In this document: positions 27,111 through 57,702 of the stretch, one piece after another | How positions within the stretch are numbered: the stretch's first letter is position 1 | Layout: every line of letters starts with the position of its first letter | Origin: Anaerobutyricum hallii | GTDB taxonomy: Bacteria > Bacillota > Clostridia > Lachnospirales > Lachnospiraceae | Assembly (NCBI RefSeq): GCF_900209925.1 | Contig: NZ_LT907978.1 | Location: 1,609,219-1,673,218, forward strand | Direction: 5' to 3' | DNA: 64,000 nt | The notes under the pieces: generated by a model | Told to the model about the DNA's origin: nothing | What the model saw: only the letters and a program-made list of their open reading frames with translations | Databases searched by the model: none | Position numbers and translations under genes: made by a program

Positions 27111-28339
27111 TTCTTTTTCTCTTTTACCCACGCAAAATAGGCTTCCACCAATGGCTTTACGCTGTCCTGCCGGCGCTTTTTCCGTTCTTCTGGTGTAAGC
27201 TCTTTTAAGGTATTGTCCACGTGATATATCATATTTATCTATTCGAGGGCCTGTCATGCAAGACTGCTCTTCCGGCTCTTTGCAGGCAGGGCTTTTACGG
27301 CTTCTTCATACCGGCGTCTTGCATGTGCCCAGCATCCAGCTACGGTCAGATTTCCCTTTTCTTTTGCCAGTTTATGATATACCTGATAACCATCTGTCAC
27401 ACAGACTCCTTCATAATCCTTCAGGAACTTTTCCGAATGGTCTGCTTTTCTTGTTTTCTGGTATTCATAGAGAATGACGGCTTTTTCTTCTCCCCCGCCG
27501 GTACAATACACCCACATAAAGCTTTTGCTCCCGGCATCTCTTCCGTCTTTTCTCACAAGGACTGACGTCTCATCTGCATGGATGACCATGCTTTGATAAA
27601 TATACCTGTGCAGATAATCATAGAATACGGCAAGATACCGTTCTGCACATTCGATTGTCCAGTTTGCCATGTTCTGTCGGGTAATGGCAAGCCCATATCT
27701 GGAAAACTCTTTTTCCAGTCTGGCAAATGGTACTCCGTTGATATATTTTCCATTGAGTACGGCTGCTTCAAGGGAAGGAGAAACAAGACTTCCTCTTAAA
27801 AGGCTTACCGGATGCGGTGCTTTTGTCATGCTGTCCCCATCTTTACTTGCATAAACACCAACATGATGTTCTTCCACTTCTACTTTTGCAGGGACAAAAC
27901 GATACCGTGTATATATCTCATCTGGAAGCTGCTTCCATCCGTTTTTTCCAAAACGTTCCTGCAGTTCTTCTTCTGCCAGATAATGTTCCACTTTTATGAC
28001 AGGGATCCCGGAAAGGTCTGTTTCCCGTTTCTCTTTTTTCTTTACGGGATGCTTCTTTGAAACAGTCTCTTCCTCATTTTCATCCAGAGAAGCCAGTGCC
28101 TCGGCTTCATTAAACATTACCAGCTCTCCGTTCACATCGGCAAATGCCATCTGCTGTGGCACTGGCATCTGTTCCGTCTTTCTCCCATAGCGGTTCTGGT
28201 TCATGACCGCAAGCTGTTCCAATACCAGCTGCAGTTTCTTATCAATCTCTGAAAGCTGCTCCTGTTGTGCGAGGAACAGCTGGATGAGTGTTTCTTTCGA
28301 AAACGTATTCAGTTTTTCTTCTGTATATCTCATCTGCAT
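27110..28339 (-). pseudogene. IS66 transposase TnpC (element 1), with two stop codons and truncated
   Basis: The N-terminal 361 residues are intact: an IS66 N-terminal coiled coil (LFLAQQEQLSEIDKKLQLVL), then MVIHADETSVLVRKDGR with a catalytic Asp and VTDGYQVYHKLA. At 27254 the frame meets TGA and four codons later TAG, then continues unshifted as MIYHVDNTLKELTPEERKKR and PLVEAYFAWVK. After that the usual C-terminus with the catalytic Glu (DNNAAER motif) is gone. The protein is therefore inactive. Confidence 0.85.
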
Positions 28340-28526
28340 AACAGAGACCTTCCTTTTCTAAAGATTATCTCTATTATATCAGAAAACAGGACAGCAGGCG
28401 AATCGCCCCTGTTATCCTTTTCGTCAGTATCACAATGCTTTTTCCGCTTATTTCTGTGCCTGCAGGCAAAGAAAACAGATGCCCTTCTTCCAAAAAGAAA
28501 TCTGCGTTATCTTGTAAAAAAAGAAG

Positions 28527-28577
28527 AACAGGCGGCTTATATATAAGAAAAAAATGTGAAAGCCCGCCTGTTTTTTT
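28527..28577. terminator. Bidirectional terminator between tnpB and tnpC of IS66 element 1
   Basis: AACAGGCGGCTT and AAGCCCGCCTGTT pair almost perfectly around an A/T-rich loop. T-runs follow on both strands (TTTTTTT on plus, CTTCTTTTTTT on minus). It lies in an unusually long 280-bp gap between tnpC and tnpB, which otherwise holds nothing recognisable. It would limit tnpC transcription. Confidence 0.7.
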
Positions 28578-28619
28578 CGTCCATAAAAAAGTTTAAAAAT
28601 TTCTACGTTATGCACAAAA

Positions 28620-28985
28620 CTATACAGTATAATCTGGTGCCTTTTTCAATCGTTTCACCTGCTTTTTAGGGAGTGTAGTAAGACCTTCCATAAGCCATCG
28701 GAACTGTTGGGATGTAATGGAACGTACTTCTGATTCTGTTCTTGGCCATTGAAACTTCCCTGCTTCTAATCTTTTATAAAGCAGAAGATAACCGTCATTT
28801 TCCCATACCAGACCTTTGATACGGTCTGTTCTCCGTCCACAGAAAAGATATAGGGTATCTGGTTCGATGGCATCTTCTCCAAGATAAGAGCGCACAGTAT
28901 CTGCCAGACGGTCAATCCCTGAACGGAGGTCTGTATATCCTGTTACAATAAATATCTTTTTAAAACAGGTCGCATCATTTAACAT
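28620..28985 (-). CDS. tnpB: IS66 accessory protein TnpB (element 1)
   Basis: This 121-aa protein is the Orf2/TnpB component of IS66. Seen motifs: IFIVTGYTDLRSGIDRLADT, LYLFCGRRTDRIKGLVWEND and FQWPRTESEVRSITSQQFRW. It is full length. TnpB is needed for IS66 transposition, but its biochemistry is poorly known. It overlaps tnpA by 11 bp. Confidence 0.93.
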   Translation of the reverse strand: MLNDATCFKKIFIVTGYTDLRSGIDRLADTVRSYLGEDAIEPDTLYLFCGRRTDRIKGLVWENDGYLLLYKRLEAGKFQWPRTESEVRSITSQQFRWLMEGLTTLPKKQVKRLKKAPDYTV

Positions 28986-29337
28986 GTGAGAGTACCCGGA
29001 CTGTCTTTTTCAGTAAAGCTTCCGAGATATCTCCATGAACCCGGACGATACATCCATTTATCTCGATAGAGATATCGGGAGTACTTTCTGGCAGATGCAT
29101 AATGTTTTCAGAAATCTCAACAACCTGCTGGCATGGAAGAGAATCTTCCGGGATATGCTCCAGACAGGCTTTGCGGATACATCGTAAACGATAATAGTAA
29201 TTCGATTTGGAGATGCCCCTGGTATCGCACCATTGTTCTACCGTCATATCGGAAGGACGGTTCTGGCATTCTTTGACCAACTGGGCCCATTGCTGCAAAC
29301 GATAGTCAGCAGCAACTGCTGTAGTAATAGAACTCAT
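28975..29337 (-). CDS. tnpA: IS66 accessory protein TnpA (element 1)
   Basis: This 120-aa helix-turn-helix protein has the Orf1/TnpA pattern: WAQLVKECQNRPSDMTVEQW, CDTRGISKSNYYYRLRCIRK and a C-terminal DISIEINGCIVRVHGDISEA. It is full length. The upstream leader folds into a hairpin (CCTCCTAACCAGT with a matching ACTGGTTGGAGG). Confidence 0.9.
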   Translation of the reverse strand: MSSITTAVAADYRLQQWAQLVKECQNRPSDMTVEQWCDTRGISKSNYYYRLRCIRKACLEHIPEDSLPCQQVVEISENIMHLPESTPDISIEINGCIVRVHGDISEALLKKTVRVLSHVK

Positions 29338-29494
29338 AGGAAATGCCTCCTAACCAGTCCTAAAAGTTGAGTACTGAACTTTTAAGACATTTAATAATCA
29401 TAGGACTATTATGGCACTGGTTGGAGGTAAAATCGTAAGCAGGTAATCATCCGTACCTTGACTAAAAAAGCCGTCCCTCTGGGCGGCTCAAAAT

Positions 29495-30645
29495 TTATTT
29501 TTTCGGTTTAGTTTTTGTCTTTATTTCTTCCGGCAGTTCTTCTGCCCATGGAAGTAAGCTATCCAGTTCCTCTGGCTTTGGGAATGGTCCAAGCTGGCGG
29601 AGTCTCTCTAATACATACGTTAAGTAAAGATATGGTTTTAATCCATTTAAAAGGGCTGTCTCTACTATGCTGTAAGTAATGGCACTGGCATCTGCTCCAC
29701 GTATACTTTTCGCAAATAACCAGTTCCGTCGTCCTACTGCAAAGTTCTTTATTGCACGTTCCGCACTGTTATTATCAATACTGAGATGTCCATCTTCCTT
29801 GTACTCCCTTCCTGCTCTGGTTCACCAAGTACCTGTATCCGGGATTCATCACAGTGGATGTAATGGCTTTTCAGGAATACTTCTTTCATACGTCCATAGA
29901 GCAGTTTCAGATACCGGTCTGCACAGCAGATGACCCAGTTCGCCATTGTCTTCGTCGAAAGGTTCAGGTTATATCTTGCGAATTCCCGTTCCTGTCTTGC
30001 CAGCGGCAGGCCATTTACATATTTCGCGTTCATGATTCCAGCCACTAAGGATGGGGTTGCTATACTTCCCTTGATCAATGGCGGTGTCTTTTCCGGGCGT
30101 TTCATCACTCCGCATTTTGAACAGCTGTATACGTAGGTGATCTCCTTTACTACTTCAAAGTGGGGCGGGACAAACTTCAGACGTTTTACAATCTCTTTTG
30201 CAGCAACTTTATATTTTGTACCGCACTCTGGACAATACTGTTCTTCTTCATCCAGTTTATATCTCTTTGTTTCTGTAACTTCGAAATTAGAAAGATCTGC
30301 TTCCTTCTTTCCTTTCCGTTTCTTTCTCTTATAAGAAGACGGCTGGATTTCTTCATAGGCAGCTGTATCCTCTACATCTGCATTCATCTCTGCTTCATTA
30401 AAAAGACAGAGCTGTTCATATCCGTCAGCATACTTCTCACTTGACTTTCCGAACCGTCTTCTTTGTTCCAGAGCGAGACGGTCAGAGAGCATAGCATTCA
30501 TGAATTCCAGTTCTTTTTGTTTATCCTTAAGAAGCTGGATCTCGTTTTCATTTTTACTTTTCTGTTCCTGCATGAGCAGCGTTACTTTAATGAGATCTTC
30601 ACGTTTCATGTTATTGAGTTGTTCTTTTGTAAACAATGGATCCAT
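29495..30645 (-). pseudogene. IS66 transposase TnpC (element 2), central deletion
   Basis: The N-terminal 270 residues are good: a coiled coil, the CPECGTKYKV...CSKCGVMKRP zinc finger, and [20 protein letters not shown]. The next readable part, in another frame, is [20 protein letters not shown] and the normal C-terminus to 29495. About 165 residues, including catalytic sequence, are missing at a short AAGATGGA overlap. The element is therefore not self-mobile. Confidence 0.85.
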
Positions 30646-30799
30646 CTATCTGCTCTCCTGCCTGTAATCTTATGGATAGATTATACCATATGGTATAGGG
30701 TTTTATCCAGAAAAAACAGCAGTCATAAATGTAGGAAATAGCAGAAAAAACCGCAGATATTTCGTGTTTTTGCGGATTGACAGGAAAAACCGAAGTCTT

Positions 30800-31153
30800 T
30801 CACACGATAATCTTGGGATGCCGTTCTTTAAAAGCCCCTTGCGGATTTAAAGACAGCCCGTCACATAACCAGTGCATCTCTTTTAATGTTACTTTCTGCA
30901 GCTCATCCGGCGTGTCTGGCCAGTGAAAAGAATTCTTGTCCAGCTTTTTCATAAGGATCCAGAAACCGGATCCGTCCCATTGAAGAATCTTGATAGAAGT
31001 GCGCCTGCGGTTGCAAAAAGCAAACATACAGCGGGAGTATGGGTCGAGGTGGAATTTCAGCTTGATGATTGCAGCCAGTCCATTGTAACTTTTCCTGAGG
31101 TCAGTAACTCCACATGCCAGATAAACGGTAGTGCCTCCAGCCAGGTCAAGCAT
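30800..31153 (-). CDS. tnpB: IS66 accessory protein TnpB (element 2)
   Basis: This 117-aa TnpB appears intact: VYLACGVTDLRKSYNGLAAI, MFAFCNRRRTSIKILQWDGS and FHWPDTPDELQKVTLKEMHW. It differs clearly from the element 1 copy, so the two IS66 elements are different IS species rather than a recent duplication. Confidence 0.92.
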   Translation of the reverse strand: MLDLAGGTTVYLACGVTDLRKSYNGLAAIIKLKFHLDPYSRCMFAFCNRRRTSIKILQWDGSGFWILMKKLDKNSFHWPDTPDELQKVTLKEMHWLCDGLSLNPQGAFKERHPKIIV

Positions 31154-31492
31154 GATATCTTAGCTCTTTTATAATAGCAGACAAAAGTTCTGATGGGCAG
31201 GAGGGACAGATCTCAATATGGATACTGTCATTAAGAAAGATATGGATAGAGGATGAAGGTTGTGAGGAAACAAGCTCTTTCCTGCGTAATTCCTGTTCTG
31301 TTGGCATTTTTGCAAAGACAGGGGCATCTTCTTTTACAGAAACCGTATCCAGATTTTTTAATTTGCGGATCCAGTAAGACATGGTAGAAACAGGAATCTG
31401 ATGTTCCTGGCACCATGTCCGGAGGTCTGTCCACTGGAATAAAATTTCTGTACACGTTCAGACCAGAATAAGATTTTCTCTTCTTTTTTCAT
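31146..31492 (-). pseudogene. IS66 accessory protein TnpA (element 2), frameshifted
   Basis: The start MKKEEKILFWSERVQKFYSS is in one frame. The rest (TDLRTWCQEHQIPVSTMSYW, then IRKLKNLDTVSVKE and the C-terminus) is in another. The shift lies near 31437, in CAGTGGACAGACCTCC. A programmed frameshift cannot be excluded, but a one-base indel is simpler. Confidence 0.7.
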
Positions 31493-31620
31493 AATGGTAT
31501 ACTTCCTCTCATATTTTGAGAAGATTGTATCAGAAAATTAATTGTGGTAACAGGTACGGATGATTACCTGCTTACGTAAAATCCAGATACGGACTATCTA
31601 CCACTTACATTTTTAGTGCA

Positions 31621-31653
31621 AAAGAAAAACACCCAACCGTTGAAGTTGGATGC
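31621..31653 (-). terminator. Terminator of the defence operon
   Basis: On the minus strand CATCCAAC, a 7-nt loop and GTTGGGTG form an 8-bp stem followed by TTTTTCTTTT. It is about 200 nt beyond the helicase stop and is the first terminator after the operon. The stretch 31654-31848 between them shows no gene or clear element. Confidence 0.82.
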
Positions 31654-31848
31654 TTCCTATCAATTACATTGAATTCTATTATTTTTCTGAAAACATACAG
31701 TTTTTATAAACGCCCAACCGAAACCGAACAGATAATGGCTACTTAGGAGATGATCGTTGTTTCTTTATAAGGCGCTGCGTGATATCTTTATGCACCGTAG
31801 AAAATCCATTGTATGATTGGCGAACCGCACATGCCTTGAACAATACCT

Positions 31849-34800
31849 TTATTTCATCAACACAGATAATCTATCCTTGAAATATTTCGGATACGAATCA
31901 AGACAACTAAAGATTTCTTCACTATGAGCTTTCAACATATTAAGTATCTTGTCCGTTCCAATATTCGCATCAGATAAAATTTGAGCTAATTCTATAGCTA
32001 ATAGACGATCATTAAAAATACTCTCACAAACAGAAATTGCTGTCATATTTGGAACGCCATATTTTACTTTCTTTTGTAACAATGTCAAGAGGTTCCTTTG
32101 ATCAACTTGCTCCTCATTTTCTTCGTCAACTTCTATCAGATCACAGATATTGCCGATAAGAAAATTCATTTCATATGAGATTCTTTTATTACATAATGAT
32201 TCTACTTCTGCAATTCCAATAGTTTCTTTGTTGTTAATTTCCATTGGAGTCTGGCCATCAATCCATTTTTTACAAACGCTTTGTATATGCTCTTGGTATC
32301 TAAAGTCTCCACAGATTTGCAGATACAATTCTGCAATAACAGATAACAGTTCTGTTTCTGTATATATCTTCTCTGTAAGTTCATTCTGAACAATCCATTC
32401 CTCTATTAGAGAAGACAAACCTATTCCTGACATTGCATTAGAATATCTGCTCAATTTTTCAACAGAATATTGTTGAATATTCTCTTCTATCTTCTGAAAA
32501 ACTTTAATCAGTAATTCTTTCTCTTTTTTTGTTGCCATAGCATACGCCAATGTATTTGTAGAAATATCCACAGCACTTTTCTTACTATCATTGACCAATG
32601 TTTCTGCGGAACGTACTAAACACAAATAATTTTCTATATTTGATATAATATCCTGACGCAATAATATTTCCTGCACAATCAGATTTTGTGTTCTTTTGGG
32701 ATTGGCTTTTAAGTATGCTTTTTCTAACTTCTTTGCGTAATCAAGCAAGAAATCTCTTTCGTCAAGGTGATCTATCACTATATCAATAAATTTCTCACCA
32801 CTTACGGTCACATCATAATCTATGTTAAAATCCTGGACTAACGAAAGAATAGAACTGCCACAAGGTTCTGTCAATTTTGTATCAAATAGCTTTACACAAT
32901 CATTCCATAAATATCCTCCACCATTTTTCCAGTTGGTACGGTTGTCGTATATTTTGCAATCCGTAATAATAATACTTCCTTCTGTGTATATACCTGCTCG
33001 TGCTGTTCGACCCATCAAGTTTTGAAAATCTCGAGCTTTTACTAATTGCAATCCATTTCGAATGCTGGTAACCAATAAATATTTTATCGGAATATTCACA
33101 CCCTGTGCAAGCGTCGATGTACATACTACGCAAGAAACATATTTATTCTTCAATGCATGTTCAACAACAAGCTTAACTCCATTTTGAAGATTAGATGAAT
33201 GAGGCAAAACACCCAATTCCGCTGCTTTCGTATAATAGTGCTCTGAACCATAATAGCTTTCTATAAATCCCTTGATTTTGGAAAGCTCTGCTTGATTTGT
33301 ATTATCTTTTAATGCTTTCAAATCATAGTTTCGCTTATCCAAATTTATAATTCTTTCAAATACCGTTTTCATTGAACGTTGCTGCCCAAGATAGATAGCA
33401 ACACCGCCGTTATGACACAACTTTATTGCATTATAAATGGCCACATCTGTAGATGATGATAAATCTGGAAAATATTTATTACTTCTTTCTCGGGGTAACT
33501 TCTTCAATTGTTCAACTCGAAGGATTCGGGGAATATAATAATCTTCATTTGATTTATCATCAGAAAAGAAATGAATATCCCTTTGTGTCGATGAAAATCC
33601 TATTGATTTAGGTGTTGATACAATACTATCATCTGTCGCCAAACAACCTCTATCCTCAAACAACCACTGTGCAATATCTCCTGAATTTGGCAATACCGCA
33701 GATAGCAAAACAAACTGCTGTTCGCTCGTTATGTTCTGACGTATATGTGTTACTAATAACTCATATGTTGCACCTCTACCTCCATCATCAAACATATGAC
33801 CTTCATCAAACATAAATAAATCTATAGCACTTAAGAAAAACGGATCATGATGTAATACATAACTCAGTTTCTCTGGCGTACATATTAGTATCTGCCGTTT
33901 AATATCTTCAGAAAAAAAATTCCAAAAATCATTTTGAAGTACATCAGAAAACTGATTTATCGTGACATCATTTCCAAAAGCTTTGTACATATCCATTGTT
34001 ATTTCGTTGCACAATGCTCTTAATGGTGCCACTATAATAGCAATATTCGCTCGTTCAGATAAAAAAGCTGCTCTAATAATTAGTTCAATACTTCTTGTCT
34101 TGCCTACCCCTGTCGGAAGTTGAACAATAGAGCTTTCTCCACGCAACAATCCCTTTTCGGCTATTAATCTTTGTGCTGGCCATAACATCTTTATTGACAT
34201 CTTACCTTGTAGATATGGCTCCCATTCTTCATCCGGGATACCTGAACTACTCGGCAAAAGACTCCATGGCGAATTTTCGCACGCCACAATAATAACTGCC
34301 ACTAATATATCTACATAAAATATACTATCCGGATCTCCATTCTCGTATATTTCATTTCTATATACCCATAAGTTTGACTTTAATGCTTCTAAAGACTTAC
34401 CCTTTCCAAAGTAATCCAAGAAAAAATTATTTATTCGCTCATAAGTATCTATAACTCTCAAATATGGCAAATACACTCCACCCAGAAGATAATTATAGAG
34501 ATTCGTCAACAATTTCTGCGGAGATCGCTCCTCATCAATTAAATCAACTACTCTTGCTGCCAACACTTTAGCACTACCAAAATCCTTTCTTAGGAAGTAG
34601 GCAGATGCTCCAGATAGCAAAAAATCCCAATCATATTCTGGTCTATCTTTGGACTTAAAAGCTGAATCATAATATTCTGCAGTTGTAATCAAAAGTAACT
34701 CCAGCTCTTTTAATTCGTCATGATTATTTTCTATAATGCATTCTGAATATCGTGACAGCACATAAGTTGTTGGATACGATAATTCATTAGAATTCAGCGG

Positions 34801-34899
34801 AAAATGTGGATACTCCTGCTTTGAAACATCGTATTCTACCATTTTGGCCTTTGCTTTTTGATATTTTAACATTAAGCCTGCATTTTTCCCAAAAATCAT
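31849..34899 (-). CDS. HamB-like superfamily 2 helicase (Hachiman-type defence)
   Basis: This 1016-aa protein is a DEAD/DEAH-like superfamily 2 helicase. Walker A (QLPTGVGKTRSIELIIRAAF) is near residue 264, the DEAH-type box FDEGHMFD near 366, VLLSAVLPNSGDIAQWLFED follows as motif III, VVCTSTLAQGVNIPIKYLLV as motif V, and LMGRTARAG near 633 as motif VI. The last third is helical and unassigned. It overlaps the DUF1837-like nuclease gene by 4 bp (ATGA). Helicase plus DUF1837 nuclease is the make-up of the Hachiman anti-phage system; assignment as HamB is by gene pairing, size and motifs. Confidence 0.8.
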   Translation of the reverse strand: MIFGKNAGLMLKYQKAKAKMVEYDVSKQEYPHFPLNSNELSYPTTYVLSRYSECIIENNHDELKELELLLITTAEYYDSAFKSKDRPEYDWDFLLSGASAYFLRKDFGSAKVLAARVVDLIDEERSPQKLLTNLYNYLLGGVYLPYLRVIDTYERINNFFLDYFGKGKSLEALKSNLWVYRNEIYENGDPDSIFYVDILVAVIIVACENSPWSLLPSSSGIPDEEWEPYLQGKMSIKMLWPAQRLIAEKGLLRGESSIVQLPTGVGKTRSIELIIRAAFLSERANIAIIVAPLRALCNEITMDMYKAFGNDVTINQFSDVLQNDFWNFFSEDIKRQILICTPEKLSYVLHHDPFFLSAIDLFMFDEGHMFDDGGRGATYELLVTHIRQNITSEQQFVLLSAVLPNSGDIAQWLFEDRGCLATDDSIVSTPKSIGFSSTQRDIHFFSDDKSNEDYYIPRILRVEQLKKLPRERSNKYFPDLSSSTDVAIYNAIKLCHNGGVAIYLGQQRSMKTVFERIINLDKRNYDLKALKDNTNQAELSKIKGFIESYYGSEHYYTKAAELGVLPHSSNLQNGVKLVVEHALKNKYVSCVVCTSTLAQGVNIPIKYLLVTSIRNGLQLVKARDFQNLMGRTARAGIYTEGSIIITDCKIYDNRTNWKNGGGYLWNDCVKLFDTKLTEPCGSSILSLVQDFNIDYDVTVSGEKFIDIVIDHLDERDFLLDYAKKLEKAYLKANPKRTQNLIVQEILLRQDIISNIENYLCLVRSAETLVNDSKKSAVDISTNTLAYAMATKKEKELLIKVFQKIEENIQQYSVEKLSRYSNAMSGIGLSSLIEEWIVQNELTEKIYTETELLSVIAELYLQICGDFRYQEHIQSVCKKWIDGQTPMEINNKETIGIAEVESLCNKRISYEMNFLIGNICDLIEVDEENEEQVDQRNLLTLLQKKVKYGVPNMTAISVCESIFNDRLLAIELAQILSDANIGTDKILNMLKAHSEEIFSCLDSYPKYFKDRLSVLMK

Positions 34900-35702
34900 T
34901 TACAACACCTCTGGTAAATGTTATGAGCCAATTCCATCAACTTTTTACCATGTACATAAAAAATCAGTTCATTTTTTCTAATTTCAAGTTCTTCACCAGA
35001 AAAATCTAATTCTATGGCATCATCTACGTTTTCACGACTACTAACTCCTGCAGCCACATATGTAATACGATAATTATTATCTGGTTTAAATAAGAATCTC
35101 TTTACCTCTTCTGCCTCTTCTATTTTGCCCAGTTCTTTTAATCGCTTTCTGCAGTAGTTTACTGATCTTGCTAATCGATGTTCATCTTTTCTGGAATCGA
35201 TAATTGCATTTTTGATTGGTGTGTACTCCGTATTAGAGAGGGTAGCTTTAACTTCTGCTGCTACCAATTCATCTTTATCATTTGAAGTTTTATCTTCATT
35301 TTTGTACTTATATGCAATGACATCAGTTCCTTGTTGTGAATTGTTTTTTCCGGATCTGTTCTTCAATTTATATCTCGGAACAGAATACTGATGAACAAAC
35401 TCTAATAAATCGGAAATTAAAATTTCTGTTATGTCTGCAGAACGTACCGTAGCTCCCAATTCTTCTCCTTTTTGTGGAATTACATAATCATACAAATACT
35501 GTTCAATAGTCATTGCATTGTCATCTGCGTCTTCTTTAAGTTCAGTATCTTCTATGTAATTTCTTCGAATGTGCAATGCCCAGTCATCAAGAATACTTTC
35601 ATCATCTTTATAATCAATTTTATAGCATTTTAGCGGTATGTCATCTTTAATTACAATACCAGTTTCTTCAACTATCCAATCGATGTATTGTGGCTTTTCC
35701 AT
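34896..35702 (-). CDS. HamA-like DUF1837 nuclease (Hachiman-type defence)
   Basis: This 268-aa protein fits the DUF1837/HamA effector of Hachiman. A PD-(D/E)XK-like set of residues is visible: Glu93 in ADITEILISDLLEF, Asp127 in QQGTDVIAYKYK and E150-V-K152 in LVAAEVKATLSN. HamA proteins are known as nucleases held in check by the HamB helicase and released on phage attack. The start has an AGGAAAGGA ribosome site and lies 14 nt after the DUF4062-like gene. Confidence 0.75.
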   Translation of the reverse strand: MEKPQYIDWIVEETGIVIKDDIPLKCYKIDYKDDESILDDWALHIRRNYIEDTELKEDADDNAMTIEQYLYDYVIPQKGEELGATVRSADITEILISDLLEFVHQYSVPRYKLKNRSGKNNSQQGTDVIAYKYKNEDKTSNDKDELVAAEVKATLSNTEYTPIKNAIIDSRKDEHRLARSVNYCRKRLKELGKIEEAEEVKRFLFKPDNNYRITYVAAGVSSRENVDDAIELDFSGEELEIRKNELIFYVHGKKLMELAHNIYQRCCK

Positions 35703-35716
35703 GTAGTATTCCTTTC

Positions 35717-37204
35717 CTAACTTTTAAACTTTATACAGCCTTCAACAACATCCGGATTATTCTTAGATGTGATTTTATATGGTATCTCATCAATCTCATT
35801 TTTCACAAAAAGGATTGTCGGGAAAGCAACAGTTGTATTATGTTTTATGTAATCTACTTTAAGCTTTACAATATACTTATCTTCACTTGAATAGAATCCA
35901 TAACAAAACACATCTTTTATCTCATCAGTGAAATCATCACTATAATTCGGAACATATCCTGACAAACCATATGGACGTGCTCCATACGGAGTTCTTCCAT
36001 TTTGCTTTGATTCTGAATATTCAATATATTCAGATGTGCCTTCAATTCCGAACAAAATACTCATATCACAATCTGTAAGCAAATATCCCATCTCTGCATT
36101 ATTAAACTTAGGGAATTCACCTAATGTAAGCAAGGATTCTTTTGGAACTTCAAACGTAATTTCAGCATCTTCGTCGATGGCCTTACCACAATTCTGAATT
36201 GCTAATTTAATACAATTCATTCCAGAAAACGCTTTCTCAACCGGAGCCCATTCCAAAGCTTTAGAAATAGTTTCATGCAATCTTTTGATTTTCCAATATT
36301 TCTGCTTTTCTTCGGACGTTCCATTCAACTTAGGACCACTGAGTGGATTTGATGTTAAAGTATCTTTGTTTAAATTTCCAAGTTCAAAAAAGGAATCGGA
36401 CAACTCACACTCCAACTGTTCAGCCGCAACAGTAATAAACTCTTTCTCATCTTCATCTATGTCAACAGGGCTTGTAAATCCAGCAAAAAAAGTATTAGTT
36501 GTAACAGATCTACCACCTACATTCATATTAGAAATCTCCTGATACATATTCTTAATCGAAGTAATGTATTCTTTCATGGTAATCTCTGCATTTAACACGA
36601 ATGGGCATACCACCGCTTCTTCAGTCAATCTTCCAGTTTCGTCAATACCTAATAACTTTAACTTAGAACGATATTCATTGGCTGTTTCACTTACCCTCTT
36701 TTCTGTCAAAAAATGCATGGAAAGATGGGCAAAAAACATCTTTTTAAATTCTTCGTCGGATGAATAAGTGAAATATATTCCTTTGTCTTTATATTTGTCA
36801 CGGAATGCTTGTATTTTCTCATAGCCGTCACCATTTATTTTTGATGGTGGGATAGGCTTATCCGAAAAATACATAAACACTTGTTTTCCAGACTGAAGCA
36901 TAATTTCAATTTCTTCTTCTGTTCCAGAACCATTCTCATCAGTAGGTGAGCCAAATCTTGTCCAGAAAATCGCAACTGCTGCATCACATTTATTTACAAA
37001 CTGCTCGTTAAGTAATGCCTGTGGTTTTCCTCCAGACCGAGCATAAGAACTCTTACTCCAATGGCGAGTTTTTATTGTGATTCCTAAAGTTTCAGCATAT
37101 AATTCATTAAACTCATCTACTGCAGATTCAATCAATGTAACTTCTTCCTTAATATCACCTGGACAAGAAATCAAAAGGTTATATAATGTCACATTTTGAG
37201 CCAT
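35717..37204 (-). CDS. DUF4062/TIR-like N-domain protein, probable defence effector or sensor
   Basis: This 495-aa protein begins with a Rossmann-like domain of DUF4062 or TIR type: YNLLISCPGDIKEEVTLIES, ARSGGKPQALLNEQFVNKCD then AAVAIFWTRFGSPTDENGSG, TEEEIEIMLQSGKQVFMYFS. Such domains mark sensors or nucleotide-cleaving effectors in bacterial immunity. The remaining 320 residues are soluble and unassigned. It starts 3 nt after the methyltransferase stop behind GGGAGGTG and is followed closely by the HamA-like gene, so it belongs to the same operon. Catalytic activity is unproven. Confidence 0.6.
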   Translation of the reverse strand: MAQNVTLYNLLISCPGDIKEEVTLIESAVDEFNELYAETLGITIKTRHWSKSSYARSGGKPQALLNEQFVNKCDAAVAIFWTRFGSPTDENGSGTEEEIEIMLQSGKQVFMYFSDKPIPPSKINGDGYEKIQAFRDKYKDKGIYFTYSSDEEFKKMFFAHLSMHFLTEKRVSETANEYRSKLKLLGIDETGRLTEEAVVCPFVLNAEITMKEYITSIKNMYQEISNMNVGGRSVTTNTFFAGFTSPVDIDEDEKEFITVAAEQLECELSDSFFELGNLNKDTLTSNPLSGPKLNGTSEEKQKYWKIKRLHETISKALEWAPVEKAFSGMNCIKLAIQNCGKAIDEDAEITFEVPKESLLTLGEFPKFNNAEMGYLLTDCDMSILFGIEGTSEYIEYSESKQNGRTPYGARPYGLSGYVPNYSDDFTDEIKDVFCYGFYSSEDKYIVKLKVDYIKHNTTVAFPTILFVKNEIDEIPYKITSKNNPDVVEGCIKFKS

Positions 37205-37207
37205 TGA

Positions 37208-39052
37208 TTACACCTCCCAAACAGTTTCATCCCCACAAATGTTACGAATTTTAAGTCGGAGAGGTTTCTTTGTGCTGCGTATGTAACCATCCCAGAACTC
37301 CTTGGTTTTATTGCCGTCTACGATAACATAGCCATTTTTATCAATCTTGATTTCACTATCAGAATGCCACTCACCACCGTTCGCAGTGCAATCCAGGCTA
37401 AGGAATTCAATAAGTTCCAAGCCTTCTTCACTGATTTCAATCGATTTATACGGTTTCTTCGTAGAAGAATTAAGGAATGCTTTCTGATTGAATTCTGCAA
37501 TTTTAAACAACACACGATCACTCATAAATTTATCAATAGCAACAGCATATCCGCCTGCAATTTCTTCTGCATGGAATTCTGCATAATCACCAATGACAAC
37601 ATCATCAAGAATTGATTTAAGATCACGCAATTCAATTTCTACAGTCGTACTGTCATCTTCTTTGATGAAATTCATAATCTCCACTTCATCAGTAATGTCG
37701 ATATAGTAAACAATAACCTTTTTAATGTCATTATCCAATTCTGGAATCGCCTGATGAATAATACGGTTCATGGTCACTTTATCAAGAAGTTTGGATGCGC
37801 TGTCCATTAAATTTGGCACGTAAACAGGAATTGTACCAAGCTTGCTATCAGAGATAGCACCTTCCCAGAAAGAATCCAGAGAATCTTCATTTTTCAAGCC
37901 AGGAATCAAAGCTTTAATTTTATCCATTGTCTGAACCGGATTACGATAAAGTTGAACTCCATCTTTAATTTCCAGCACATCGAATTCAGCCCCATCTGCG
38001 ACAAGACGATCACGGGTTGTCTGAACAGAATTCAATCCAATATCACAATGAATAAATTTTCTGCCAAGTTTATTTGCGCAGACTGCAGTTGTTCCGCTGC
38101 CTCCAAAAAAGTCTGCAACTATTAAATTTATATCCGAAGAAGCTTGAATTGCCCTTTCAATCAATGACTCTGGTTTTTGCGTAGCATATCCAACCGGTTC
38201 TTTTTTATCTGCAGGTTGAAGCATAGACATTCTCCAGACATCATCAATAGTCTTTTCTGATGATTCCTGGTAAATTACTCTACCATTTTCATCTTTTGCA
38301 TTCACAAGCTTTTGAGTTTCAGAATCCCAAACCCTTTTAATTTGTTTAATAGTTTCATCTCTCTTTTCCTTAATGGGCGAGAAAATATATATATCGCTTT
38401 TTGTATACAGAAAAATTACATCATGATTAGATGCAAATCTGTTTACATTCCCCTGCATTTTATTGTAGTAATGCCAAACAATTTCATTCAGAAAATGTGA
38501 TTCTCCAAATACTTCATCCAATAAGATTTTTACATAATGACCTATATGCCAATCAAGATGAACATAAATAGATGCCGTTTCGCTCATTATAGACTTAATC
38601 GCCATAAGGTTTTCATACATCCAGTTCAGATATTTTTCTTTATCCCATACATCACCATACATCTTTTCTTCAAAAGCTTTCAATTCATCTACATCCAGCT
38701 CTTGTTCAGCCTGTGCAATAACTTCTGCTACTTTCGGATTTCGACGAATATATACTTTCTTTGCGTAATCGGCACCACTTGCAAATGGTGGGTCAATGTA
38801 AACAAGGTCAACTTGAATGCCTTGCTCTTTAAGATAAGCACAGGCAGAAACACATTCTCCACGAATAACCATATTACCATCGGAGTTTTCGCCCACAGTT
38901 TCCTGTTTTTCCATTTCATATAAAGGCATGCCACGTTGCAATGTCATAGAAACATCGTCAGCGCCTTTGTATCTCAATATTCTGTTAAAATTACCAAGCA
39001 CAGCCTGTCCTTCCACCGGCTCCGGTATAAACGGTACATATTTAATTGGCAT
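37208..39052 (-). CDS. Type III DNA methyltransferase (Mod), N6-adenine
   Basis: This 614-aa beta-class amino-methyltransferase modifies adenine. Motif IV DLVYIDPPFASGADYAKKVY is near residue 87 and the SAM-binding motif I VADFFGGSGTTAVCANKLGR near 317, the order expected for type III Mod enzymes. The central part between them should hold target recognition. The last 200 residues are unassigned. Its start overlaps the stop of the 68-aa gene (TAATG). It protects host DNA from the upstream Res subunit. Confidence 0.9.
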   Translation of the reverse strand: MPIKYVPFIPEPVEGQAVLGNFNRILRYKGADDVSMTLQRGMPLYEMEKQETVGENSDGNMVIRGECVSACAYLKEQGIQVDLVYIDPPFASGADYAKKVYIRRNPKVAEVIAQAEQELDVDELKAFEEKMYGDVWDKEKYLNWMYENLMAIKSIMSETASIYVHLDWHIGHYVKILLDEVFGESHFLNEIVWHYYNKMQGNVNRFASNHDVIFLYTKSDIYIFSPIKEKRDETIKQIKRVWDSETQKLVNAKDENGRVIYQESSEKTIDDVWRMSMLQPADKKEPVGYATQKPESLIERAIQASSDINLIVADFFGGSGTTAVCANKLGRKFIHCDIGLNSVQTTRDRLVADGAEFDVLEIKDGVQLYRNPVQTMDKIKALIPGLKNEDSLDSFWEGAISDSKLGTIPVYVPNLMDSASKLLDKVTMNRIIHQAIPELDNDIKKVIVYYIDITDEVEIMNFIKEDDSTTVEIELRDLKSILDDVVIGDYAEFHAEEIAGGYAVAIDKFMSDRVLFKIAEFNQKAFLNSSTKKPYKSIEISEEGLELIEFLSLDCTANGGEWHSDSEIKIDKNGYVIVDGNKTKEFWDGYIRSTKKPLRLKIRNICGDETVWEV

Positions 39053-39258
39053 TATTTGATTCCTCCGTTTTTCATATAACTTACAAATTGTTCAAAAGAA
39101 TTTGCCATACTATATGATGTTATAAATTCTTGTGCCAATTTTGCTTTTTGTATGTCATCCAACTCGTCTAATGCCTTAATAAAATCAAGCAATTTATTTT
39201 TTGCATTAGTATATTTATCATCAAACTCTATGCCTACAGTAGGTCTAATTCCATTCAT
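39052..39258 (-). CDS. Small protein between Res and Mod, unknown (68 aa)
   Basis: The gene starts MNGIRPTVGIEFDDKYTNAK and is helical and mildly acidic. It is joined to both neighbours by TAATG overlaps, so the three genes form a translationally coupled block. Good ribosome sites (AAGGAGAAAG upstream) support expression. It is not a standard type III component; a fixed subunit or regulator of the Res/Mod complex is a reasonable guess. Confidence 0.75.
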   Translation of the reverse strand: MNGIRPTVGIEFDDKYTNAKNKLLDFIKALDELDDIQKAKLAQEFITSYSMANSFEQFVSYMKNGGIK

Positions 39259-42128
39259 TACGCTTTCTCCTTAAAAAACTCACAGATTTTTTGATGTGTC
39301 TGTGTCAATCTATCTTTCTCTGGCATCGTATCTTCCAAATACAGGTAATCAAAACGTTCATAACCATACGCAGCATTATTCTGTTTTGAAAACTCCGTTT
39401 CCATAAAATTCTTCTTATCTTTAAAGACTGGATCTTTGGCATAAATCAGCCCCTTGGTTTCCACTACAATAACCTTATGGATAACGCCATCTTTTCGTTT
39501 AATGATAAGGAAGTCCGGTGTGTAAATACCAATGTAATTCCATTTTCCACTGGTTTTCTTATAGCACTTGATCTTAAACTCCGTCATAGCACGGTCACCA
39601 TTGTAATACACTTCCAGACCTAATTCTTCGATAATATCGAAGGACAATACTTCTCTTAAAAATGTTTGTTCAAAACCACTGTCTGTACGATATGGCAAGT
39701 AGTGGAACGAACGATTCTTATTTGGGTGAGATGATACACGCTGTTGCAATTCCAAAACGATTCTATCGTTTCCAGTTTCTATAGCGAGATCAATTAACTG
39801 CTGTGTCTTTTTATCAACTTTCAATTTTCCCTTATCGTCAGCCATTATGTTTTCAACAACATTCTGTTTTGGATAGTAGTCATCCAGATTATCTGCATAT
39901 ATCTCAGAAGTAAAATTCGCAATGTTCAACAAATTAGCTTCTTCTGGTATCAGTTCTTCTGTTGTATTGAAATCCGTTTTGTCACAAAAAGCTTTGCGAA
40001 TATTGGCTTCTACCAACTTTTTATTGTACTTCGAACTGAAATATCGTGATCCACCTTTTTCGTATGTGATTTTTTCATATATTACTTTTAACTGCTCTGT
40101 ATATGCATTTAATTCTGCCATGGAAGGTGTTCCAAATCCACTTCTCATAATGCCATAAATCCAAGAATTAAAGGTTGCATATTCTGTACCATATTCAGCA
40201 TCATCCACCTGGATACTGATATTATTTACATTCATAGAAAGATCTGTTGTTTTGATAATATTACCTGCAATTTGCGCTGAATCAACAGATTTTTCAATAG
40301 AAACTTCAGGATTTGCCTTTTCAACAGTAAGTGTATCATAGCTGATTTTCAGCTGATAAAACTCTACTTTAGGCAACTTTAAATAAGCCGTACGATTATA
40401 ACGTTTCAAAGTAGTCTTAATGTTGTCTGCAGAAGAAAATTCTTTGAGCGAAATATGGTGCTGCCGCTCAAGCTGCATATTTAATTTTTCGGCATTGCTT
40501 TCATTCAAATATATCAGCGCCGTTTCCTGACCGTTTTTAATCACCTGACGCAAGCATCGACAAGATGTCTGTAATACCATCTTGGTTGGGCAATCTCCTT
40601 CTTGAGAAAGAATAATACCTGTAAGACTTCGACAGTCCCAACCTTCTTTACCAATCTGCACAAGCAAAACAATACGAACTTTAGAAATAGATTTATCCAA
40701 GATATCAAACTGCATCTGACTATCAGCCGACATCTTATACTGTTTATTTCCTTTGTGGAATTTAAGTATAACATCAGTACCAAGGCCATATTCAGCTACA
40801 ATACGGGATACCTGTGGATATACTGTTTCTTCTAATTTTTCGATAGTACCGCAATAAATACCCAATTTAGCTGTTAAACCATCTGCATAAACAGTGTCTT
40901 TATAAGTATCAAGAAATTCTCTGACACCCTTTTCAATAATAATGCTGCTATCTGCAATATCTGCAATTTTTACAACTGGACGTTTTAAGAAATTTCCTAC
41001 ACCGTCTATAAGTGGATAGTAATACACAATATTTGTGATTTCAGCTGTACCAATGGACAATGAATCTACAACTTTTATTTTTTCAACTTTGTCTAAATAT
41101 GGAGTACCAGAAAAACCAATTACAGAATTGACTGTATGATTCTGCGCCCATCTTGTAACTACAGCACGAAGCTTAATTTCATCACTTACTGCATGATGAA
41201 CTTCATCAATAAAGATAGACAATGATGGTAACTTACCAATTAAATTACGAAGTTCATTTGCCTGTCGGTCTTTATCGTCCTCGCTTTCTTCAAACATATT
41301 TATCTGTCCCTGTTTTTCCTGAATACGGTCAAGAATTACTTTTTCCGCATTAGTAACAGCAACAAGACCAAACAACTCAGAAAGCGGCTGATGATTAGCG
41401 ATTTTCTGAACATTTGGATTTTTTGTCTTATTTGATTTTTTTGCAGTTTTGCTTTGATCCAACACTTCAAAAGAAATCATCCTCTTGATGTCTGTTGCTG
41501 CCGGCTCCGGAAGAATCCATGATGGATTAAAGTTTTGTATTGTTTTAAGACTTGGAACCACTGATGATTTCAAACCTGATGGTGCAAATATGATAAAGTT
41601 ATGTGCAAATGACGGATTTGTTGGCTCGTTATAAGCAAAATATAAATCCAAGTAAATAAATGCCGCCATCAAATATGTTTTACCTGCACCCATAGGAAGA
41701 CTAAACAGATAATCCGTATAGGAAACACCATAAAACGCATTACGAAAGAATTCATTATAATCAATTCCCGCTGGATCTTTCTTTATCTGTTTTTCCAGTT
41801 TTTCAGATACCTGTTCACCTTTATCATTTGTCAAACATACATATTCAAACAATGCCGCAGCCGCTGGATTCTGAAACAAATATTCACGAGTGGATTTTGA
41901 CAATTCTATCTCATTCAAATCAATAGAATTAAAGAATCCCTGTCTAAACAGCTGTGTCAACGGCTTACATTCACAGGCAATTTTTAGAAACAGATATACC
42001 TTAATAGCCTCAATCTGAGCATCACGCATCTGCCCTGTTTTCTCTATATACTCAATTAAGTTTTTAACCGTACACCGTTCTGATTCATACCATTGTGTAC
42101 ACTTATTTTCTATCATTTTATAGAACAT
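39258..42128 (-). CDS. Type III restriction enzyme subunit (Res), helicase plus nuclease
   Basis: This protein of about 956 aa has Walker A LPMGAGKTYLMAAFIYLDLY near residue 146, DEAH-type LSIFIDEVHHAVSDE near 307, VIGFSGTPYLDKV near 342 and motif VI QTSCRCLRQVIKNGQE. A C-terminal PD-(D/E)XK nuclease follows near 870-890 (TPDFLIIKRKDG...VIVVETKG). This is the layout of type III Res proteins. The start MFYKMIENK was chosen because GGGAG lies 7 nt upstream; a TTG 15 codons earlier is less likely. Unusually, Res precedes Mod. Confidence 0.88.
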   Translation of the reverse strand: MFYKMIENKCTQWYESERCTVKNLIEYIEKTGQMRDAQIEAIKVYLFLKIACECKPLTQLFRQGFFNSIDLNEIELSKSTREYLFQNPAAAALFEYVCLTNDKGEQVSEKLEKQIKKDPAGIDYNEFFRNAFYGVSYTDYLFSLPMGAGKTYLMAAFIYLDLYFAYNEPTNPSFAHNFIIFAPSGLKSSVVPSLKTIQNFNPSWILPEPAATDIKRMISFEVLDQSKTAKKSNKTKNPNVQKIANHQPLSELFGLVAVTNAEKVILDRIQEKQGQINMFEESEDDKDRQANELRNLIGKLPSLSIFIDEVHHAVSDEIKLRAVVTRWAQNHTVNSVIGFSGTPYLDKVEKIKVVDSLSIGTAEITNIVYYYPLIDGVGNFLKRPVVKIADIADSSIIIEKGVREFLDTYKDTVYADGLTAKLGIYCGTIEKLEETVYPQVSRIVAEYGLGTDVILKFHKGNKQYKMSADSQMQFDILDKSISKVRIVLLVQIGKEGWDCRSLTGIILSQEGDCPTKMVLQTSCRCLRQVIKNGQETALIYLNESNAEKLNMQLERQHHISLKEFSSADNIKTTLKRYNRTAYLKLPKVEFYQLKISYDTLTVEKANPEVSIEKSVDSAQIAGNIIKTTDLSMNVNNISIQVDDAEYGTEYATFNSWIYGIMRSGFGTPSMAELNAYTEQLKVIYEKITYEKGGSRYFSSKYNKKLVEANIRKAFCDKTDFNTTEELIPEEANLLNIANFTSEIYADNLDDYYPKQNVVENIMADDKGKLKVDKKTQQLIDLAIETGNDRIVLELQQRVSSHPNKNRSFHYLPYRTDSGFEQTFLREVLSFDIIEELGLEVYYNGDRAMTEFKIKCYKKTSGKWNYIGIYTPDFLIIKRKDGVIHKVIVVETKGLIYAKDPVFKDKKNFMETEFSKQNNAAYGYERFDYLYLEDTMPEKDRLTQTHQKICEFFKEKA

Positions 42129-42201
42129 GTATTTACTCCCGTCTTTAAAATGTATATTATTATTTTTTCTCAAAGCGCAAATTTTTCACTTTGAATCACG
42201 T

Positions 42202-43092
42202 TTAATATGCAATTCTAAAATAATCCAAATACGCTTTATACTTGTCCTGTGCGCTCAGGCAGGTATCTGTCAGATATCCTTTTTCGTTGTCCCATTCCTT
42301 CAATCCACGATAATAGAACATCTTCAGATTGTCCTCAATAATGAACGGAACAATATTGTATTTCAGACACTCCTTAAACATAATCAATCTGCCCACACGA
42401 CCGTTGCCGTCCTGGAACGGATGAATCCGCTCAAATTTCACATGGAAGTCCAGAATATCTTCAAAGGTCTTTTCTTCCTTAGCGCTATATTCCGTCAGCA
42501 AGGCCTTCATTTTATCGGCAACTTCTTCTGGAAGGGCTGTATCCCTGCCACTGACTTCATTCGGAAGTTTCTTATAATTACCAACAGTAAACCAATTTTT
42601 TCTGGAATCGCTGGTGCCATTCTTCAAAACCAAATGAAGTTCTTTGATGAATTTCTCCGTCAAAGTTGCTTTCGCATGATCAATAATTATGTCGATACAA
42701 CGGAAGTGATTTGCCGTTTCAATCACATCATCCACATTCAGCACTTCTTTTTCTACACCAATAGTATTAGTTTCAAAGATATATCTGGTTTGAGCATGTG
42801 TCAGGCGGCTTCCCTCCATATGGTTAGAGTTATAGGTCAAATCAATCTGTGTCTTATGATAAATCCCACCGGAGTATTTACTTGCCTTCTGCTCTTTCAG
42901 AATATCCAACAGAGTAATCGGTTCTTCTTTTCTTTTGTTGGTGCGCTCTGGTTTCTCTGCGTTTTCTGGAATATTCCATGTCTTACCAGTAAGAAACGCA
43001 CCGTTCACACGTCCTTGGGCACAGTAATTTCTAACACTGCGCTCTGACATATTCCATTTTTTTGCTATATCAGCAACTAAAAGGTATCTCAT
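42202..43092 (-). CDS. Fic family protein with N-terminal helix-turn-helix
   Basis: This 296-aa protein carries the complete Fic motif HPFQDGNGRVGR near residue 224, which transfers AMP or related groups to proteins. An inhibitory (S/T)xxxE(G/N) helix precedes it (SNHMEG), so the enzyme is of the self-inhibited, N-terminal-helix class. The first 35 residues look like a DNA-binding helix-turn-helix (DIAKKWNMSERSVRNYC). It lies 73 bp upstream of the Res start in the same orientation and may belong to the same defence unit. Confidence 0.9.
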   Translation of the reverse strand: MRYLLVADIAKKWNMSERSVRNYCAQGRVNGAFLTGKTWNIPENAEKPERTNKRKEEPITLLDILKEQKASKYSGGIYHKTQIDLTYNSNHMEGSRLTHAQTRYIFETNTIGVEKEVLNVDDVIETANHFRCIDIIIDHAKATLTEKFIKELHLVLKNGTSDSRKNWFTVGNYKKLPNEVSGRDTALPEEVADKMKALLTEYSAKEEKTFEDILDFHVKFERIHPFQDGNGRVGRLIMFKECLKYNIVPFIIEDNLKMFYYRGLKEWDNEKGYLTDTCLSAQDKYKAYLDYFRIAY

Positions 43093-43317
43093 CTACAATC
43101 CTCCGTCATAAATCAAATCCCAAAAACGTACCAATCTACTAATTAGTATATCACACCATCGGCAAAAACGCCATTCTTTTTGGCCACTGTGCTATTTTTT
43201 AGCCGATATGGCAATTATATCATCTATTAAATTTTACTTTCATTTTCGTACATGATCATGAGGCTTTTTCCGTTCAAATTGTGCAATCAAATGTAAAAGG
43301 AGGATGTTCTTTATCAA

Positions 43318-43473
43318 AATAAAAATGGCGAAGTGCTTATCGTAACACTCCGCCGAAAGCCTAACCGGTTTGAGCAAAATGATTGGTTAGGTCTGCTTTA
43401 TTATTTTATGCAATTCCACTGCATTTATACACTTAAATGTTCTTTCCAATCCGCAGGAAAATTCATTACTGCG
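43318..43473 (-). ncRNA. Candidate structured small RNA
   Basis: Downstream of a TTGACA promoter, the minus strand has four hairpins in a row. They are CGCAG/CTGCG (43452-43473), ATGCA/TGCAT (43408-43424), CCTAACC/GGTTAGG (43360-43391) and GGCGGAGTG/CACTTCGCC (43327-43354). The last is followed by ATTTTTATTTT, a terminator. The only reading frame is 13 codons. The pattern fits an independent RNA of about 155 nt. I do not recognise its family. Confidence 0.5.
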
Positions 43474-43479
43474 AGACTG

Positions 43480-43509
43480 ACTACACCATGATTATGATGT
43501 TACTGTCAA
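43480..43509 (-). promoter_or_regulatory. Promoter of the candidate small RNA
   Basis: The -35 box TTGACA (43504-43509) is a consensus match. An 18-bp spacer leads to TGTAGT (43480-43485). Start of transcription would be near 43473. It points away from hcp and toward no full-length gene within 300 bp. Confidence 0.55.
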
Positions 43510-57586: not shown

Positions 57587-57666
57587 CCTCATTTCATGCA
57601 ACTGGCTGCCATTTTACAGGCCCAGTAGCTTTGCGTCCCAGACTTTCATCTGGTTTGTCGATTTCC
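57587..57666 (-). promoter_or_regulatory. c-di-GMP-I (GEMM) riboswitch aptamer
   Basis: The minus strand shows the GEMM-I hallmarks in order: GACAAACC, a GAAA-loop hairpin (CCAGATGAAAGTCTGG), the invariant GGGACGCAAAGC, then CTGGGCC and ATGGCAGCCAGTTGC closing the second helix. Tetraloop and receptor are both present. It controls the hybrid kinase downstream. Confidence 0.93.
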
Positions 57667-57702
57667 TTATTATTTTTAAACTTTTGCAAAAAAACTGGTT
57701 TT

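Follow-up and report, generated by a model that had tools for sequence, protein, structure and literature searches.

The window analysed here is a 64,000-nucleotide (nt) stretch of Anaerobutyricum hallii DNA, and all operon coordinates given below are positions in this reference. Its minus strand carries a defence gene cluster made of a type III-like restriction-modification (RM) pair (Res and Mod) with a protein of 68 amino acids (aa) between them, a DUF4062 protein and the two Hachiman proteins HamA and HamB. A previous sequence-only reading had described these six genes as a run in which neighbours overlap by 1-4 bp or lie 3 and 14 bp apart, which is exact to the base; all six are co-directional. 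The features of the locus are as follows.

43354-43327, minus strand: terminator upstream of Fic, a hairpin of up to -18 kcal/mol, the strongest in a scan of 31000-43500
43093-43326, minus strand: probable promoter region between this terminator and Fic, with a promoter-like ATGAAA-18-TATAAT at 43243-43214 (consensus match only)
42202-43092, minus strand: Fic, 296 aa, probably the operon's first gene, separated from the Res ATG by 73 bp
39258-42128, minus strand: Res, 956 aa, starting at ATG 42128, an SF2 helicase with a C-terminal PD...ExK
39052-39258, minus strand: 68-aa protein, 1-bp overlap with Res
37208-39052, minus strand: Mod, 614 aa, a beta-type amino-DNA methyltransferase, 1-bp overlap with the 68-aa gene
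35717-37204, minus strand: DUF4062 protein, 495 aa, after a 3-bp gap behind Mod
34896-35702, minus strand: HamA nuclease, 268 aa, after a 14-bp gap behind the DUF4062 gene
31849-34899, minus strand: HamB sensor helicase, 1016 aa, 4-bp overlap with HamA
31621-31652, minus strand: intrinsic operon terminator about 200 bp 3' of HamB, -10 to -14 kcal/mol according to how much sequence is folded, followed by TTTTTCTT

The open reading frame (ORF) of Res opens at TTG 42173 (971 aa). However, nucleotide homology to its relatives begins only at 42139-42128, so we place the start at ATG 42128, as the earlier reading had done. The first good terminator is also where that reading had put it, 3' of HamB (31652-31630). 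Only weaker hairpins occur inside the genes: the hairpin/U-run scan of 31000-43500 gave sites within Fic (42383, -10 kcal/mol) and Res (40440, -9 kcal/mol), and a second scan, which overlooked the HamB terminator, listed a 5-pair site within Mod (39007-38995). Neither promoter-like sites (54 vs 57.2) nor terminator-like sites (9 vs 8.8) are in excess over shuffled sequences, and no internal promoter is thus indicated. Spacing and terminators together point to a one-operon anatomy from Res to HamB with a presumed single transcript; co-regulation of the six genes would follow from the spacing. Fic is probably a seventh member. It is included in the homologous block of Hornefia butyriciproducens (L036), it adjoins Res on a phage record (L093), and in one further genome (G115/L026) Fic and Res are both retained as fragments. 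Profile matches and homologues rule out artefacts or chance ORFs.

Fic exhibits matches to Pfam Fic (E-value = 9.1e-17) and PADLOC PDC-S04 (5.5e-113), with a helix-turn-helix (HTH)-like N-terminus for which HTH_17 scores just 0.054. Read by eye, it contains HPFQDGNGRVGR and SNHMEG, which we take to be the Fic motif and a class II-type inhibitory motif, respectively. Res is matched by ResIII (1.9e-7). No type III Res model matched Res (PADLOC REase_III, E threshold 0.1) or its relative P0011. P0013, a distant Mod-Res homologue, matches REase_III at 7.6e-7. The helicase motifs of Res and the residues P886 D887 ... E905 T906 K907 (numbering of the 971-aa ORF) are invariant in six aligned relatives, and the C-terminal PD...ETKG was assigned by eye to the PD-(D/E)xK type. 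Sequence searches returned no significant solved relative for Res or for the DUF4062 protein.

The 68-aa gene is conserved at the same position of the Res-Mod operon L023 (59% identity) and has a further copy in the phage record L093 (90% identity), which rules out a chance ORF. It is absent from four other loci of the family (L024, L073, L092 and L074), and no match was found in the plasmids searched. Weak matches to LXG (E-value = 0.012) and Csn2 (0.0039) were given no weight.

Mod scores alike with PADLOC MTase_III (7.5e-44) and MTase_II (1.4e-45), and matches Pfam N6_N4_Mtase at 2.2e-43. Its DPPF (near residue 87) and FGGSG (near 316) occur in what is presumably the beta-type motif order, by which it is classed. 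Residues 194-288 exhibit 24% identity to the L023 and L024 homologues, against 73-91% in the flanks, and the recognition domain therefore appears to have been swapped. Single-copy patterns gave no Mod match in viral contigs. A search with the Mod of the viral contig L073 matched 48 of 113 genomes, by score mostly generic methyltransferases; a 64-residue piece in G475, 73% identical to the L073 Mod, may be the remnant of a close relative. The earlier assignment to type III RM thus holds for a Res-Mod restriction system, while the type III label is provisional, given the order Res-Mod and the lack of a type III Res profile match. We use "type III-like" because Res matches no PADLOC type III Res model. 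Cleavage by type III enzymes requires two inversely oriented sites.

The gene following Mod, previously read as DUF4062/TIR-like, matches PADLOC PDC-S60 (1.4e-24); Pfam DUF4062 (4e-4, 20.9 bits) remains below its gathering cut-off of 24.7. According to the available part of a preprint of May 2026 (PMC13174449), DUF4062 is a TIR-like NADase family related to TIR and NDT domains. It is named "Swarozyc", mediates portal-triggered abortive infection, has a catalytic E97 in KpSwz, and is encoded in some cases in operons with characterised defence genes. An AlphaFold2 model of the window protein (10 sequences; mean predicted local distance difference test score 77, predicted template modelling score 0.54) exhibits five beta-alpha units in residues 1-170. 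Foldseek places SelB elongation factor in the first rows and a nucleoside 2'-deoxyribosyltransferase (8pqs, E-value = 3.7e-4) at rank 3, the remaining top rows being generic alpha/beta folds; no TIR structure is among the best 50 rows. E96-E98 are invariant in 10 sequences, and one of them may correspond to KpSwz E97. The protein is predicted to consist of a TIR-like NADase-type N-terminus (1-170) and an auxiliary C-terminal domain.

Neither Res nor Ham genes are in view around some DUF4062 relatives, namely those in L011, L033 and the 8 viral-contig loci displayed of 11. The nearest relative among the viral contigs (L061, 1476-6542; 50%) is preceded not by Ham genes but by an SpbK-like TIR gene, at a distance of 58 bp; an N6 DNA methylase gene lies 164 bp before that TIR gene. 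In L034 (1-9735; G027) a gene with a DUF4062 N-terminus lies, by eye, directly upstream of and co-directional with type I RM-like subunit genes. An Aerococcus tenax plasmid (L011, 10885-15572) carries a full-length relative about 1 kb after a DUF262 gene and ahead of a conjugation module resembling that of the window. A partnership specific to HamAB and DUF4062 found no second case among the loci read.

The HamA-like and HamB-like genes are genuine Hachiman genes: the profile check proposed with the earlier reading gave matches for both. HamA matches PADLOC PDLC00161 (1.8e-86, 288 bits) and, over the cut-off, Pfam HamA (DUF1837; 1.1e-6). Its catalytic residues D127, E150 and K152 are intact. 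A 5-sequence profile matched the solved HamA (8vx9) only at E = 0.022. HamB, a Ski2-like helicase, matches PADLOC PDLC00188 (1090 bits) and the solved HamB of 8vx9 (E-value = 1.7e-37). The window HamA is 27-36% identical to 12 plasmid-borne HamA sequences. It has no match in phage records, and single-copy or clade patterns confirmed no relatives in viral contigs.

The entire seven-gene block recurs in Hornefia butyriciproducens, at 97.6% nt identity over 11.7 kb (window 43494-31844), which is best read as a recent transfer. The gene order proposed for checking in other genomes is thus not unique to this one. Among the loci read, however, the exact six-gene order occurs only in the window and in Hornefia, as one recently shared block. 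The ratio of nonsynonymous to synonymous substitution rates (dN/dS) between the two copies is 0.05 for Fic and 0.08 for Mod, indicating purifying selection on both genes. For HamB, Res, HamA and DUF4062, where changes are few, it is 0.30-0.60, and the 68-aa gene exhibits one synonymous and one nonsynonymous change. Against the Erysipelotrichaceae locus L037 the values are 0.07 for HamA and 0.18 for HamB. The differences between window and Hornefia concentrate in Fic, in the region upstream of it and in parts of Mod, so that the operon is also a recombination mosaic. A 72-bp stretch upstream of Fic (window 43211-43282; L036 14042-14113) has an 82% copy just past HamB in Hornefia. The Hornefia block is accordingly flanked by a direct repeat (L036 2407-2474 and 14033-14100), which may represent either a scar left by recombination or a regulatory region present twice.

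Elsewhere the modules occur apart, which argues for a composite operon rather than an ancient fusion. An ancient six-gene system is ruled out on the same ground, the modules being separate in the loci read outside the window/Hornefia transfer. The idea that the systems are "fused" into one has to be given up in favour of modules with separate histories. Full-length Res relatives (78-79%) without Ham genes are found in G012, in the order Res - 300 aa - 68 aa - Mod, and in G220 (L024), in the order Res - Abi_alpha - Mod. In the latter, Abi_alpha (PF14337, 6.7e-45; L024 7906-8700) occupies the position of the window 68-aa gene. G105 has an 83% Res fragment at a contig end (G-numbered genomes may include the same species as the named loci). 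In L037-L042 and L047, HamAB either follows another operon or stands alone. Between the window and L037 or L038, nucleotide homology sets in 11-14 bp ahead of the HamA ATG, and the boundary of the HamAB cassette is therefore placed at its ribosome-binding site rather than at a promoter. At the other end, about 128 bp 3' of HamB (window 31721-31849) are common to L037 and not to Hornefia; this is possibly a remnant of the cassette's former neighbour.

A single scan of genome contigs with a HamA alignment gave seven loci, including Hornefia, and several of them place HamAB behind other restriction operons. In an Erysipelotrichaceae metagenome-assembled genome (MAG; L037), HamAB 94/91% identical to those of the window lie 76 bp behind a type I RM operon (HsdM, HsdS, KAP ATPase, HsdR and a 328-aa gene). 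In Lacrimispora (L039) and a Lachnospiraceae MAG (L040, G086 contig), they follow DruE-like and UvrD helicases. These are preceded in G086 by an IIG/DrmMI-type methyltransferase and a DrmD-like helicase; only the end of a methyltransferase-like gene is in view in L039. L041 is a relic of this type, in which a 94-aa UvrD remnant precedes HamA by 28 bp. In another MAG, HamAB starts 1 bp behind BREX PglX-PglZ-BrxL. A Merdimonas MAG has HamAB alone, with HamB not intact in one frame.

Two further arrangements involve a different Hachiman subfamily. The viral contig L073 and the complete Anaerosphaera phage L092 have the order Res (51%) - Mod (56, 52%) - HamA (314 aa) - HamB (889 aa), with HamA 7 and 14 bp after Mod. 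The L073 HamA and HamB match other PADLOC models than those of the window (PDLC00162, 427 bits; PDLC00190, 1160 bits); the L092 proteins are 92 and 93% identical to them. In a HamA tree with long branches, of which we use the separateness only, both fall outside the window clade. A type III-like Res-Mod pair thus appears to have joined Hachiman twice independently, with two different subfamilies. The Res-Mod family with a complete Mod comprises seven loci (window, L036, L023, L024, L073, L092 and L074), four of them with HamAB, in two lineages; L074 has a TIR gene 175 bp after Mod (1.4e-19) and no Ham genes. Five of 20 Res loci were displayed. In L165 (3268-12536), HamA-HamB lie 24 bp behind a LlaJI system (C5 methylase 1.2e-70, AAA_5, LlaJI 2e-49). 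L169 has the same look with a broken HamB region, its LlaJI assignment being by resemblance and not by profile. The HamA of both carries an N-terminal extension. Distant Mod-Res pairs of opposite order, in L027, L075 and L078, stand by eye directly after a UvrD-type helicase gene of 955-973 aa.

For 27 HamA loci we determined the distance to the closest upstream ORF of 100 aa or longer and called HamA attached when this ORF was co-directional and within 100 bp. Ten of the 27 stand 1-76 bp behind a methyltransferase-bearing operon, L039 and L169 being assigned by their resemblance to L040 and L165. The ten represent six junctions: type III-like twice, type I, BREX, DISARM/Druantia-like and LlaJI. 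In the other 17 the nearest such ORF is either separated by more than 100 bp or encoded on the opposite strand; L041 is counted here, since its 94-aa remnant is under the cut-off. The window, L073 and L092 entered as index case or via Res-Mod, and 7 of 24 are attached without these three. Same-contig duplicates (L028, L029, L094, L168 and the short versions L012-L015 and L043-L046) were left out. Seven of 12 plasmid records with HamA relatives were read (H47, H48, H49, H53 and H56, same-species copies, were not), as were 2 of 9 in another record set. The sample is small and partly drawn by similarity, so that the tally is a lead and not a frequency estimate. The related genomes and phages show repeated joining of Hachiman to the 3' end of restriction operons that are unrelated to each other, and a recurring design of layered defence is suggested by this. 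In an open-access-weighted literature, mostly covered at the level of listings, no paper surfaced that describes Hachiman genes closing operons of the type III-like, type I, BREX or LlaJI kind.

We propose, with a probability of roughly 0.6, that the locus is a mobile composite defence operon of four modules (Fic; Res-68 aa-Mod; the Swarozyc-like DUF4062 protein; HamAB) providing layered defence. This reading starts from the anatomy, protein families, catalytic residues, modular boundaries and recurrence described above, to which it adds a presumed single transcript, order of layers and set of triggers. One promoter would drive all layers. In a first, non-suicidal layer, Mod would protect self DNA while Res would cut unmodified phage DNA. 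Two later layers would be abortive. In one, the DUF4062 protein would deplete NAD+ once its C-terminal domain senses a phage protein. In the other, HamAB would monitor DNA integrity, with DNA destruction once ends and single strands build up, for instance upon infection by a phage that beats restriction. HamAB would be a 3' plug-in that brings a ribosome-binding site but no promoter and joins operons which are expressed and self-protecting beforehand. Physical contact between modules would not be required; a coupling at the protein level is a plausible candidate. Consistent with layering, abortive-type genes lie in or after related Res-Mod operons (Abi_alpha in L024, the TIR gene in L074). Suicidal co-effectors have also been proposed as backup modules in BREX, as far as the accessible part of PMC12839542 goes.

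Several observations weigh against this proposal. The full gene order is known from two genomes only, and through recent transfer. Fic and parts of Mod have been replaced separately by recombination. The dN/dS of DUF4062, 0.60 on 27 changes, offers little proof of constraint. Res-Mod operons of the window family exist without Ham genes (L023, L024 and L074). Within the bacterial family, matches to HamA turned up in 5 of 397 genomes, to Res in 7 of 397 and to DUF4062 (including partial matches) in 8 of 299, and no genome other than the window's own appears on two or more of these lists. In particular, Res and HamA occur together there alone among the two draws making up the 397 genomes, from which it follows that the modules can do without each other.

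This separability would also fit a neutral stacking of cargo at the cargo end of an integrative element, the shared transcription being accidental and the benefit restricted to co-transfer. The block adjoins IS66-type and conjugation genes (by eye), the Aerococcus DUF4062 gene occupies a comparable position, at the cargo end of an element whose conjugation genes are similar, and defence genes cluster anyway. Mixed neighbours would however be expected from such stacking, whereas HamA attachment looks bimodal (10 loci at 1-76 bp, 17 without a co-directional ORF within 100 bp), and type III-like Res-Mod met two Hachiman subfamilies independently. We regard stacking alone as somewhat unlikely.

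A tighter relation is conceivable, in which ends made by Res cuts and by DNA processing at unmodified sites, or a failure of restriction, trigger HamAB, or in which an RM protein silences the suicide effector in the manner of PrrC/EcoprrI, until a phage inhibitor lifts the silencing. The accessible part of PMC12278908 proposes that HamAB loads DNA ends, with nicking triggering ATP hydrolysis and cleavage. From what is available of PMC2610378, PrrC is silenced by a linked type I RM enzyme, and RloC, sometimes linked to type I or III RM, is a proposed DNA-damage response. The catalytic state of HamA bears on this question. Of 23 aligned HamA sequences, 21 retain the D/E/K residues, the exceptions being L073 and L092. 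In the subfamily of these phage-borne proteins, the four attached copies, of two lineages, lack E-x-K (FGTSS in L073/L092, FGASH in L165, FGASD in L169), and the two stand-alone copies (L166/L167, from Rhodococcus and Arthrobacter) keep FGESK. Dead HamA domains have parallels in the accessible descriptions of AbpA, where one is joined to another nuclease (PMC12278908), and of dead HamA-protease fusions with a separate nuclease (PMC12799240). A restriction enzyme could, by analogy, take the nuclease role beside a dead HamA; in the phage-borne variant of this explanation the RM nuclease would stand in as effector. A rule that HamA is nuclease-dead whenever attached to RM fails, however, in the window's own clade, where all six attached copies keep D/E/K. 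That clade sits behind four unrelated kinds of operon, which makes a specific contact of HamA with Res unlikely. The correlation amounts to about two attached lineages vs about one stand-alone lineage, and the L165/L169 proteins are also N-terminally extended. Mechanistic coupling is unlikely. It is likewise doubtful that a sizeable fraction of Hachiman is RM-coupled, joined to many kinds of self-methylating operon on account of RM cuts or failures that serve as HamB's signal, and with the restriction enzyme replacing dead HamA as effector in some lineages, namely those of phage-borne Res-Mod-HamA-HamB and LlaJI-HamA-HamB.

Two or more abutting transcription units (RM; DUF4062; HamAB) are highly improbable: internal promoter-like sites exist, and HamAB of L038 stands alone behind a 489-bp gap and is thus separately expressible somewhere, but the 3- and 14-bp gaps and 1-4 bp overlaps would force promoters into coding sequence, promoter-like sites are not above shuffles and the internal hairpin/U-run sites are all weak.

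If the layered pattern holds, RM, BREX, Hachiman and DUF4062, annotated apart, would often form one transcribed layered device. Hachiman's DNA-damage sensor would gain a local signal source in its partner restriction enzyme, and the suicide-backup idea of PrrC-EcoprrI would extend to DNA nucleases and NADases. The loci described here provide natural testable pairs, including versions with an apparently nuclease-dead HamA.

By eye, IS66-type transposase genes and fragments at 27254-31455 separate the defence operon from conjugation/partition genes. At 11129-16371 on the minus strand, what reads by eye as the VirB4-type ATPase gene of the conjugative element is split by a group II intron (Rfam 14003-14204 and 11497-11574), which has a reverse transcriptase-like ORF at 11604-13604; transfer would thus seem to need splicing. 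Farther away, a c-di-GMP-I riboswitch (57594-57669, minus strand) lies upstream of a 950-aa sensor-kinase-like gene (57419-54567, by eye).

Compared with known systems, the window pair shares with Hachiman an intact D-ExK HamA, a Ski2-like HamB, the 4-bp overlap and the profile matches; it differs in forming the 3' end of a larger RM operon instead of standing alone. In Hachiman, DNA damage leads to HamA release and cell death. The view that the two systems are normally separate needs qualification, since a Hachiman-RM linkage has a precedent in an island of Streptococcus thermophilus. The accessible part of that account (PMC12322248) reports that the integrated island of Hachiman and type II RM was far more protective than plasmid Hachiman alone, copy and context differing as well. 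Physical linkage is common to both cases, whereas the island has a type II RM and no DUF4062, and is described there as a two-system island, with no shared operon described. Type III RM resembles the window system in a Mod with a central swappable recognition domain, a Res with SF2 helicase and PD...ExK, and adjoining genes; the window differs in having Res before Mod, no type III Res model match and passengers inside the operon. With Swarozyc, in the available part of PMC13174449, the locus has in common an N-terminal DUF4062 with a conserved Glu region and the occurrence in operons with defence genes, the difference being that the nearest relative of the window protein among the loci displayed follows TIR and N6 methylase genes rather than Ham genes. 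PrrC/EcoprrI and RloC, as far as PMC2610378 is accessible, likewise link a suicide effector to an RM locus as a second line of defence. They are, however, anticodon nucleases rather than DNA nucleases or NADases, and silencing by the RM enzyme is described for PrrC. Finally, HamMAB and AbpAB (PMC12799240 and PMC12278908, in their accessible parts) are also Hachiman cores that acquired effectors, including a dead HamA with another nuclease; their additions are proteases and MBL-type or Cap4-like nucleases rather than entire RM systems.

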